This document shows, piece by piece, positions 9,242-28,663 of a stretch of 32,823 nt of DNA. Made by a program: the position numbers and the translations under genes. The DNA lies in contig JAAOZY010000130.1 of the NCBI GenBank assembly GCA_012274205.1, positions 1-32,823 of the forward strand, written 5' to 3'. Under the pieces are notes generated by a model that saw only the letters and a program-made list of their open reading frames with translations, searched no databases and was not told where the DNA came from. The stretch is from Betaproteobacteria bacterium (GTDB lineage Bacteria > Pseudomonadota > Gammaproteobacteria > Burkholderiales > SG8-39). Positions within the stretch are counted from its first letter, which is position 1. Every line of letters starts with the position of its first letter.

Positions 9242-9961
9242 ATGAGTTCCCCTGATTCGAATCCGACCTTTTCGCTGGTCGGGCAGATGCTGCGCACGCC
9301 CGAGGAAATCGCGCGCGTCCTCAACTCGCTGGTGATGCGCGGCGAACCGATCGTTTCCGCCCTCAGCGGGGGCAAGCTGCTGTTCCGCTCGCGGCTGCGC
9401 TTCGTCGATCCGGGGAAGGCCTATGTCATCGTCGAGCTCGGTCCGGATGAGGCAGCCAACCGGGCGCTGCTGTCGCGGCCGCGTGCGACCTTTCACGCCG
9501 AACCCGGCGGCTGGCGCGTGGAGTTCGCCGCAGCCAATCCCAGGCCGACCGGCGCGCATGAGGGCGCCGCGGGAATCAGGCTGCGCTTTCCCGAAATCGT
9601 CGCCGGCCACCGACGGCGGGAAAACGAGCGCGCCGCGATTCCACCGCAGCATGAGCTGCGCTGCATCGTGGACGAAGCCGGCGTCATGCCCTTCGACGGC
9701 ACCATGGCCAACGTGAGCAAGGGCGGGATCGGCTTTTTGCAGTACGATCCGGAAATCAGCCTCGAGCCCGGCACGGTGCTCAAGGGCTGCCGCATCGAGA
9801 GCCCGGGCAAGGCTTCGATGGTGGTCGACATGGAAGTGCGCTACTCGCAGCTGCTGACCCTCGCCGACGGCAGGCAGGTGCAAAGCTCGGGCTGCCGCTT
9901 CCTCAATCTCTCGCCGGAAGAGACGGCGCGCATCGAAGAGCTGTGCGGACTGAAGACCTGA
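9242..9961 (+). CDS. YcgR-like flagellar brake protein (N-terminal YcgR domain + c-di-GMP-binding PilZ domain)
   Basis: PilZ signatures: HRRRENERAAIPP (RxxxR) and GTMANVSKGGIGFL (NxSxxG); YcgR-N-like N-terminal half. Confidence 0.82.
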   Translation: MSSPDSNPTFSLVGQMLRTPEEIARVLNSLVMRGEPIVSALSGGKLLFRSRLRFVDPGKAYVIVELGPDEAANRALLSRPRATFHAEPGGWRVEFAAANPRPTGAHEGAAGIRLRFPEIVAGHRRRENERAAIPPQHELRCIVDEAGVMPFDGTMANVSKGGIGFLQYDPEISLEPGTVLKGCRIESPGKASMVVDMEVRYSQLLTLADGRQVQSSGCRFLNLSPEETARIEELCGLKT

Positions 9962-10002: not shown

Positions 10003-10112
10003 GAACCCGTTGCAAAAATGAAATTTTGCAACGCCCAATATAGGGGAGTATGAGGGGAGGTCCCCCAGGGGGACTTCCTTTGGGGCGTATCCCCTCATTT
10101 TGCAACGGACTC
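10003..10112 (+). repeat. Copy 1 of ~109-bp palindromic dispersed element
   Basis: gaacccgttgcaaaaatgaaattttgcaacgcccaatataggggagtatgaggggaggtcccccagggggacttcctttggggcgtatcccctcattttgcaacggactc; terminal inverted repeats CCGTTGCAAAA/TTTTGCAACGG. Confidence 0.93.
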
Positions 10113-10127
10113 CAAGGAGACTGAAAC

Positions 10128-10886
10128 ATGAGTTCACACAACAGAGTTGCCATCGTCACCGGCGCCGGCACCGGCATCGGCAAGAGCGCCGCGCTGGCGC
10201 TGCTTAAGGACGGCTATCGTGTCGGGCTGGTCGGCCGGCGCCGGGAATTGCTCGAACGCACGGCGCAGGACGCCGGACCGGCGTCGCCAAATACGCTGGT
10301 GCTGCCGGCCGACATCGGCAAACCCGAGTCCGTCAAGGCACTGTTCGCGCAGGTGCGCGAAACCTGGGGCCGGCTGGACCTGCTGTTCAACAATGCGGGC
10401 ATGGGCGCGCCGGCGATCCCGATGGAGGAGCTCAGCTTCGAGCAGTGGAAGGCGGTGGTCGACGTCAACCTCAGCGGCATGTTCCTGTGCTCGCAGGAGG
10501 CGATAAAGATCATGAAGAGCCAGGATCCGCGCGGCGGGCGCATCATCAACAACGGTTCGATATCGGCGCATGCGCCGCGGCCGAATTCGGCGCCCTACAC
10601 CGCCACCAAGCACGCCGTCACCGGCCTCACCAAATGCATCTCGCTCGATTGCCGCAAGTATGACATCGCCTGCGGCCAGATCGACATCGGCAATGCCGCC
10701 ACCGAGATGACCGAGCGCATGAAGAACGGCGTGGCCCAGGCCAACGGCACGACCGCGGTCGAACCGCGCATGGATGTGGCGCATGTCGGCAGCGCCGTGC
10801 TCTACATGGCCAATCTGCCGCTGGATGCCAATGTGCAGTTCATGACCATCATGGCGACAAAGATGCCCTTCGTGGGGCGCGGTTGA
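10128..10886 (+). CDS. SDR-family oxidoreductase
   Basis: Rossmann [22 protein letters not shown] (YxxxK) active site. Confidence 0.94.
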
Positions 10887-12442: not shown

Positions 12443-12551
12443 GAATCCGTTGCGAAATGAAATTTTGCAACGGCTGATATAGGGGAGTATGAGGGGAGGT
12501 CCCCCAAGGGGACTTCCTTCGGGGCGTATCCCCTCATGATGCAACAGACTC
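12443..12551 (+). repeat. Copy 2 of ~109-bp palindromic dispersed element
   Basis: gaatccgttgcgaaatgaaattttgcaacggctgatataggggagtatgaggggaggtcccccaaggggacttccttcggggcgtatcccctcatgatgcaacagactc; begins at the nucleotide after the cyclase stop codon. Confidence 0.93.
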
Positions 12552-12570: not shown

Positions 12571-14235
<1,665 letters not shown>

Positions 14236-26582: not shown

Positions 26583-26969
26583 TCAATACCCCTGCCGGAA
26601 CAAGTACGCCAGCAGCGCGGCACCGAAACCCGCTACCGTGAGGTTCATGAACACCGACATGTTCACCCAGTAGCCCGCGGGGATTTCAATCGGCTTCAGC
26701 GTTTTGAGGACGGTCCTGAACTGCAGCGCGGCAGCCACCGACAGCGATGCGCCGAGCAATATGAATATCAGGCCGATCCAGAACGACATCCCCGTTTCCG
26801 GAATGGGCTTGCCGCTGGGGGTGATCCCGCCTGGGGCGATCATATGCAGAAACAGGCCGAAGCGCTCCACGGCGAAACCGAAAGCCATCAGCGTCAGGCA
26901 GGTACGGTTCCAGGCGAGCAGCGTGCGCTCGGCCGCAAAGAACACCCGCGGATCGTTCAAATCTGACAT
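26583..26969 (-). CDS. DUF202 domain-containing membrane protein
   Basis: DPRVFFAAERTLLAWNRTCLTLMAFGFAVERFGLFL is the DUF202 signature; three TM segments. Confidence 0.92.
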   Translation of the reverse strand: MSDLNDPRVFFAAERTLLAWNRTCLTLMAFGFAVERFGLFLHMIAPGGITPSGKPIPETGMSFWIGLIFILLGASLSVAAALQFRTVLKTLKPIEIPAGYWVNMSVFMNLTVAGFGAALLAYLFRQGY

Positions 26970-26993: not shown

Positions 26994-27102
26994 GAGTTCA
27001 TTTCAAAACGAGGGAATATCCCATGTGGGGACTTCCTTCGGGGCGCATCCCCTCATTCTCCCCTAGATCAGAGGCCATTTCAGTAATTCTGAAATGGCAT
27101 CT
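26994..27102 (-). repeat. Copy 3 of ~109-bp palindromic dispersed element (divergent arms, inverted centre)
   Basis: Minus-strand: AGATGCCATTTCAGAATTACTGAAATGGCCTCTGATCTAGGGGAGAATGAGGGGATGCGCCCCGAAGGAAGTCCCCACATGGGATATTCCCTCGTTTTGAAATGAACTCCAA; aligns end to end with copies 1 and 2; perfect 10-bp hairpin at 27074-27098. Confidence 0.88.
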
Positions 27103-27112
27103 TGGATAAGGC

Positions 27113-28663
27113 TCAGGCCTTCACCGGCGCGGCGGCATCCGCGGCTTTCGGCGCGCGCAGCTTGCCCAGCCCGCTGCGGATGGCGGCTTCCACCGTCTCG
27201 ACGCTGTTGTTGAGCGCGAGGCTCTTCGCGTACACCTTCTTCTCCTCGACGTTGGCGAGGCGGCTGATGAGCACGCGCTGCGCCTGCGGCGAGCCGGCGC
27301 CGTGCATGGACTCGGTGAGATAAGCTACCGCCCCGCGCCCCATGGTGAGGTTCTCGATCAGGCGCAGCAGGCGCATGCGCTCGTAAGTACTCATGCCGGC
27401 CGCGCCGGCGAGGTATTTCTTCAATATCCCCGCGGTCTGCGGATTGAGCCAGTCCTTCGCCGAGGGCAGCGTCACCATCAGGCCGCCGGCAATGTCCTGC
27501 AGGATGCGCGCGATCTCATAGGGCAGGCGCGTCACGTTCTGCTTGCACACGTTGGCGAGCAGCGCGTCGACGAAGAAATTGCCAGCTGGCAGCTTCCTGC
27601 CATTGGCCGAGCAGGCGATGCCGCAGGCAAACAGCGTTTCGTTGAGATGGTTCATCTCGACGATTTTATCCTTGATGTGCGATGCCCTGGCCACGCCGTT
27701 GTATTCGGCGATGGACGCGGCAGCGCCTATGGCCACGTCGCCGTTGCCGACTTTGCAGCCGCCGTAGCTCTGGCGGTGGTAACTCGCGAAAACGTCCACC
27801 AGCGGCGCGGCAAACTCGGTCTCGCCGTTCATGAAGATCATGGCGTCGGGCACGAACACGTCGTCGAAGATCATCAGCGCTTCCTGGCCGCCGTAGGTCG
27901 GGCTGCCGGCATCGATGTCGGAGGCTTCGCCGCCGCCGAGCTTGCGCTCGTCGCAGGACTGGCGCCCGTAGATGTAGGTGATGCCTTCGGAGTCCGACGG
28001 CAGTGCACAGGTGATGGCGTAGTCCTTCTCGTCCGGCTTCAGCGACACGGTCGGCATCACCAGCACCATGTGCGAATTCACCGAACCGGTCTGGTGCGCC
28101 TTGGCGCCGCGGATGAGGACGCCGCCCGGGCGCCGCTCGACCACGCGCAGGTACATATCCTTGTCCTGCTGCTCCGCCGGGCGCTTCGCGCGATCGCCTT
28201 TGACGTCGGTCATGGCACCGTCGACGATCCAGTCGTTCTGCTCCATGGCAAGGGCGAACTGCCTGAAGCGGGCGTGGTATTGCGTGCCGAGTTTGCGGTC
28301 CATGTCGAAGGTGGTGGCGAACACGGCGTTCAGCGCATCCAGGCCGACGCAGCGCTGGAAGCAGGTGCCGCAGCGCTGCCCGAGCAGGCGCTGCATGCGC
28401 ACCTTGTTGATCAGATCCTCAGTGCTCTGGTGCAGATGGCAGAAACGGTTGACGGTCGCACCGGTCAGCGCGGATTTCGCCGTCATCAGCTGACGGTGCT
28501 CGGGGTCATGCGCCAGTTCGTAGGTCAGGGCCACGGTATTCATCGAGGTCCGGATATACGGATGCTCAAGCGGATTGGCGAGCAGCTTGCCGTCCAGATA
28601 GACCTTGAGCGGCTTGCGCCGCGCGAGGCTGTCGCGGTACTGTTGTGCGTTCATCATGGCCAT
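27113..28663 (-). CDS. abfD: 4-hydroxybutyryl-CoA dehydratase / vinylacetyl-CoA delta-isomerase (HpaB superfamily, AbfD)
   Basis: CFQRCVGLDALNAVF and YHRQSYGGCKVGNGDVAIGAAA carry the Cys-x3-Cys and His-x6-Cys [4Fe-4S] ligands of clostridial AbfD; also NRFCHLHQSTEDLINKVRMQRLLGQ and RGAKAHQTGSVNSH. SD GGAGGG upstream of ATG 28663. Confidence 0.93.
   Translation of the reverse strand: MAMMNAQQYRDSLARRKPLKVYLDGKLLANPLEHPYIRTSMNTVALTYELAHDPEHRQLMTAKSALTGATVNRFCHLHQSTEDLINKVRMQRLLGQRCGTCFQRCVGLDALNAVFATTFDMDRKLGTQYHARFRQFALAMEQNDWIVDGAMTDVKGDRAKRPAEQQDKDMYLRVVERRPGGVLIRGAKAHQTGSVNSHMVLVMPTVSLKPDEKDYAITCALPSDSEGITYIYGRQSCDERKLGGGEASDIDAGSPTYGGQEALMIFDDVFVPDAMIFMNGETEFAAPLVDVFASYHRQSYGGCKVGNGDVAIGAAASIAEYNGVARASHIKDKIVEMNHLNETLFACGIACSANGRKLPAGNFFVDALLANVCKQNVTRLPYEIARILQDIAGGLMVTLPSAKDWLNPQTAGILKKYLAGAAGMSTYERMRLLRLIENLTMGRGAVAYLTESMHGAGSPQAQRVLISRLANVEEKKVYAKSLALNNSVETVEAAIRSGLGKLRAPKAADAAAPVKA

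Follow-up and report, generated by a model that had tools for sequence, protein, structure and literature searches.

Insertion of ERIC, the hairpin-forming MITE of enterobacteria, at the 3' ends of genes alters mRNA level, and Correia/NEMIS of Neisseria is a short, co-transcribed MITE whose terminal repeats are cleaved by RNase III (reviewed in PMC10969869). GTAG- and CGTC-tagged REPs are short palindromic repeats that are sometimes nested in larger palindromes, and no transposase is known for the CGTC type (PMC3733652). The window analysed here, a stretch of 32,823 nucleotides that constitutes an entire contig of a 3.86 Mb assembly (490 contigs, ~87% complete), contains three copies of a repeat that, taken as a whole, is very probably an IS5-family (ISJp4/ISBugl2-like) MITE, composed of an 82-bp shell with or without a 27-bp module, mobilised in trans, which may act on mRNA. 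The repeat is mobile: it has terminal repeats, duplicates TNA at its target, shares its ends with an IS5 partner, forms conserved hairpins, and sits between genes with a bias towards the sense orientation. IS5-type MITEs are well known; this family is a new one among them and contains an unusual second mini-repeat.

Direct reading of the sequence located three copies of ~109 bp in the window (Table 1), at the positions where the preliminary description had placed three copies of 109-110 bp. Its anatomy and coordinates were right, except that copy 3 sits on the - strand with another left arm (CCATTTCAG.../CTGAAATGG), and the sequence it gave for copy 1, GATATAGGGG, is corrected to CAATATAGGGG. 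Consistent with its claim that no transposase is associated with the copies, no transposase gene was noticed among the partly annotated ORFs of the window. An 18-mer common to all three copies, TAGGGGAGNATGAGGGGA, occurs exactly 3 times compared with 0.06 expected in shuffles, and each copy folds ~4 SD better than its dinucleotide shuffles. Copy 1 is preceded by a gene that ends at 9961 and followed by an ORF that starts at 10128, whose Shine-Dalgarno sequence (CCAAGGAG) it adjoins; copy 2 lies ahead of a convergent gene (12571-14235); and copy 3 lies 3' of one - strand gene (27113-28663) and ahead of another (26583-26969). The flanking 3-mers are CGA/CAA at copy 1, TAG/TGA at copy 2 and CAA/CAA at copy 3, such that copies 1 and 2 show no exact target duplication and copy 3 has CAA on both sides.

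Table 1. Positions of the three copies in the window and of the parts of copy 1.
Feature	Position	Strand	Basis or remark
Copy 1, full form	10003..10112	+	Shell (82 bp) with module (27 bp); 110 bp, additional A in left arm
Left terminal inverted repeat GAACCCGTTGCAAAAATGA	10003..10021	+	Family alignment, flank statistics
H1, left local hairpin CGTTGCAAAA / TTTTGCAACG	10008..10033	+	Compensatory changes, 73 distinct copies
H2, central hairpin ATGAGGGGA ... TCCCCTCAT	10050..10098	+	97.7% paired; T-A replaced by C-G in 11 copies
Nested module of 27 bp, GTCCCCCAGGGGGACTTCCTTTGGGGC, in H2 loop	10060..10086	+	Missing from 57 shells, either orientation elsewhere
Right terminal inverted repeat, GAGTCCGTTGCAAAATGA on - strand	10095..10112	+	Alignment, flank statistics, end pairing
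Copy 2, full form with module	12443..12551	+	Directly after stop of ORF ending 12442
Copy 3, subfamily C, arm GCCATTTCAGAAT	26994..27102	-	Module in opposite orientation

To determine the range of the element, the host genome and its relatives were searched. BLAST of the host genome with copies 1 and 3 returned tens of strong places per query, and a scan of the loci fetched from it yielded ~120 distinct anchors and 104 distinct placed copies; together they put the number of intergenic copies in the genome above 100. A pattern-match tally was set aside as a copy number, its reversed control being nearly identical to the pattern itself. The element is present in all 14 congeners searched and only sporadically in other genera, and so the outcome that was to count against a family, namely a lack of further copies in the host or in related genomes, is not what was found. 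Exact-motif matches in named records come mostly from MAGs labelled Burkholderiales or Betaproteobacteria; the few records labelled as other groups are in part chance coincidences and in part what look like wrongly labelled bins.

A family alignment resolves the 82-bp shell into a left terminal repeat, hairpin H1, the spacer AGGGGAG, hairpin H2 and a right terminal repeat, the left terminal repeat doubling as the 5' arm of H1 and the terminal repeats reading GARNNCRTTKCAAAATGA. The 109-bp form consists of this shell with the 27-bp module in the H2 loop, and the forms of the element span 82-131 bp and have no coding capacity. H1 is paired in 89.6% of cells and has changed on both sides in 9/11 pairs, with 44 such cells compared with 9.6 in shuffles; in H2, one pair covaries. 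Template-switch correction of palindromes, instead of selection on RNA, could be a source of the compensation in H1. On the + strand, G-T mismatches exceed A-C mismatches by 41:23 (p=0.03, among copies related by descent), a weak hint of constraint on this strand as RNA. The terminal inverted repeats pair in 70% of cells, compared with 30-41% when the ends are slid against each other.

The left arm had also been proposed to pair with the terminal arm, so that two mutually exclusive folds would be encoded. This pairing is 70% complete compared with 68.6% in shuffles and includes 6 covarying pairs compared with 6.5, whereas H1 covaries strongly; the covariation score of the terminal-arm pairing lies above shuffles, as expected from subfamily structure. 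The two arms match because both are terminal repeats and, as their pairing holds no extra covarying pairs, a conserved two-state switch is not supported. A structured regulatory RNA with two such folds, of the riboswitch or attenuator-like kind, would agree with the stable folds of the copies, the conserved hairpins and the sense bias in placement, but it is highly improbable given that the terminal-arm pairing does not covary beyond shuffles, that 30/104 copies lie in convergent gaps, that mobility is evident from target duplications and empty sites, and that a scan of the element against Rfam, as the preliminary description had proposed, gave 0 matches at the gathering threshold.

Aligned copies begin GARNNC and finish NNCTC, with TNA on each flank inside an outer C...G, corresponding to CTNAG sites. 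Identical 3-mers flank 18 of the 49 copies with both ends, against 8.6 after the flanks were paired afresh (p=1e-4). In 17/24 TNA/TNA flank pairs the two middle bases are alike (8 TTA, 8 TAA and 1 TGA), one flank pair of the same 49-copy set being mixed (TAA/TTA). The excess of identical flanks and the agreeing middle base therefore indicate a TNA target duplication. Orthologous stretches around copies 1 and 2 were recovered in congeners and do not contain such an element; copy 2 is missing from the orthologous position in all five congener loci that could be compared. Around both copies the gap lengths vary among congeners, and the exact empty target is not readable base by base. Recent movement is indicated by L027, L028 and L029, 82-bp copies that are identical but differently flanked. 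The MITE-like character first suggested for the repeat is borne out: it has terminal inverted repeats and TNA duplications, its sites are empty in congeners, and an IS5-family transposon matches it. Two congener sites orthologous to copy 1 (L301 and L305) contain other palindromic inserts in the same intergenic gap.

That transposon was encountered in a search for the terminal repeat without MITE sequence after it. In the congener G002, TTAGAACCCATTTCAAAATGA directly adjoins a C-terminal remnant of an IS5-family transposase, and the border, GAACCCATTTCAAAATGA, is the same terminal repeat as that of the MITE, with TTA outside. The remnant matches PF13586 and PF01609 above cut-off and the NCBIfam IS5 models below it, as expected of a fragment, and its plasmid relatives, 64-67% identical to it, are annotated IS5, ISJp4 and ISBugl2. 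The ends of its relatives (Pandoraea, Robbsia, ISJp4 and ISBugl2) read GAGACCGTTTCAAAAAGA or GAGGCCAGTTCAAAAACT, and TTA is duplicated in three of the four relatives read (on both sides of L373, L375 and L376). The ends and target rule of the MITE are therefore those of this IS5 group. The preliminary description had set a match to an already described element or to a derivative of IS ends as grounds for refuting it; such a match is present at the ends, which agree with those of IS5, and no named MITE family was matched. BLAST of the whole element against plasmids and phages gave no match, and no paper was found on the sequence of the element or of the module, or on ISJp4/ISBugl2 together with MITE.

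An intact autonomous IS with exactly this terminal repeat (GARNNCRTTTCAAAATGA ends) was not found, the sole congener copy with the end being truncated. The host genome (G000) gave no match to PF01609 or to the remnant transposase, and therefore the family looks orphaned there; as this assembly of 490 contigs is 87% complete and MAGs frequently lose IS copies, the absence is not proof. The terminal repeat was absent from the searched loci of the IS5-type transposases first found in the genus (PF01609, PF13340 and PF13359), and ISAzo13-type transposases (PF07592) are present in 4 congeners and not in G000. The search for the terminal repeat also turned up further small elements that share these ends. 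Longer elements were observed as well: L353, L356 and L348 are ~138 bp, with the same ends and TNA rule and an inner palindrome GTCATTCCGAGCGAAGCGAGGAATCTGC, which in L356 houses the 27-bp module, and four copies of ~270 bp with matching ends, mostly CTNA-flanked, are present in one congener (L350, L355, L357 and L358 in G014).

A palindromic, intergenic, high-copy element could also be of the REP/BIME type, mobilised by a RAYT tyrosine transposase, and there are described cases of REPs nested within palindromes (PMC3733652). However, the ends match an IS5 element, and a GTAG tag was not seen in the copies read. Movement of the IS200/RAYT type is moreover not expected to leave TNA duplications, which are present here, and such an origin is scarcely credible.

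The central GC-rich stem of the preliminary description is a separable 27-bp module. The 57 shells without it have a 6-nt H2 loop instead, most often AGGTAT; fewer than half of the shells bear it, roughly 30 in forward and 17 in reverse orientation by an approximate reading of the loop, the scripted labels being ambiguous for many copies. Outside this shell, the motif GCCCCGAAGGAAGTCCCC occurs in 12/250 genomes of the order, partly as 27-bp tandem arrays, and the module is also found inside differently built hairpin elements. Among plasmids, no clear case was found of an empty site for the module away from the shell. The module (GCCCCGAAGGAAGTCCCCTTGGGGGAC) stands alone or in 27-bp head-to-tail arrays in several Burkholderiales families (L108, L109 and L327-L346; L047 and L333 in the host), and in L378 it adjoins IS66 tnpB. 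The same 27-bp module, together with a GGGGG spacer, is present in further hairpin elements whose ends are unrelated, e.g. CTAAGGAAACACTGAATAAG...CTTGTTCAGTAATTCCCTAA (L106, L107 and L333). In eight loci (L009, L010, L013, L014, L016, L017, L023 and L041), another palindromic insert, of the TTTCCCGTCAAGCGGGATCGAGACC type, lies within the module, and in L070, L079 and L123 the palindromic insert within the module is nested again.

To determine the placement of the copies, gene positions were taken from a home-made, simple codon-based gene caller. No copy lies inside a predicted gene in the host (0/104) or in congeners (0/93), and copies between tandem genes are sense rather than antisense by 47:16 in the host (p ~1e-4) and by 42:13 in congeners (p ~1e-4; these copies share some ancestry). 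None of 195 placed copies lies within a predicted gene, and 89 tandem-pair copies are sense and 29 antisense, a ratio of ~3:1. The upstream stop codon is typically no more than ~5 bp away, and many copies begin exactly at the stop. No terminator-like site scored at the copies when an intrinsic terminator role was considered. The avoidance of genes, the abutting stop codons and the ~3:1 sense ratio suggest that sense copies may have an effect on mRNA.

The intergenic position and the sense bias could instead reflect the purging of harmful insertions and the CTNAG target, which coincides in part with stop codons and with ribosome sites of the form TAAGGAG; the element would then be inert. The observed CTNAG target and the many copies that start exactly at an upstream stop codon are consistent with this, and it is a plausible, if not quite probable, alternative. 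CTNAG is symmetrical, however, and so target choice alone cannot yield a 3:1 sense ratio in two sets of copies, and the compensatory changes in H1 also argue against an inert element. Under the preferred explanation of an IS5-type MITE with an action on mRNA, an IS5-type DDE transposase would have spread the shell in trans, using CTNAG sites and duplicating TNA, and the host genome now appears to be without that transposase. A separate 27-bp dispersed repeat occupies the H2 loop in fewer than half of the shells. The shell would have inserted beside stop codons and been kept mostly in sense, where it is probably co-transcribed, and its hairpins may act on mRNA through stability, processing or weak attenuation, by analogy with reports for ERIC and Correia. 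A tentative and rather doubtful extension is that the shell has been adopted genus-wide as a sense mRNA element after stop codons, with H1 kept by selection despite sequence drift, and that the module is a separate micro-element moving between unrelated hosts (shells of different families and intergenic DNA) across several Burkholderiales families.

These results account for a conspicuous repeat in an uncultured genus of Burkholderiales about which little is known, and they link it to a definite transposon family on three grounds: its ends, its target duplication and the remnant of a transposase. With a covarying hairpin and a recurrent post-stop sense bias, the copies form a good natural set for asking if MITEs persist through mRNA effects. 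The 27-bp module prompts a further question, namely how anything so short is dispersed.

Among known systems, the module resembles GTAG- and CGTC-tagged REPs in being a short palindromic repeat nested in a larger palindrome. CGTC-tagged REPs have an 8-9-bp stem opening with A-T pairs, a 4-5-nt loop and a CCA tail (PMC3733652). Judged by eye, the module (GTCCCCCAAGGGGACTTCCTTCGGGGC) differs from them in that its stem does not open with A-T pairs and no CCA tail follows; it also forms 27-bp head-to-tail arrays. The small dispersed repeats (SDRs) of Nostoc, at ~21-27 bp and occurring inside other repeats, are similar to the module in size and nesting but belong to another phylum and differ in sequence. 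The whole element is, like ERIC of enterobacteria, a short, intergenic, hairpin-forming MITE, but its sequence, ends and target differ, the target duplication of ERIC being TA. It shares with Correia/NEMIS the form of a short MITE and, probably, co-transcription, whereas the ends and target of Correia/NEMIS are different. IS5 elements of the ISJp4/ISBugl2 type have TTA duplications, and their ends (GAGACCGTTTCAAAAAGA) match the right end of the MITE (GAGTTCGTTTCAAAATGA) at 15/18 positions; in contrast to these IS, the shell is non-coding and includes, besides H2, the left arm repeated in inverted form.
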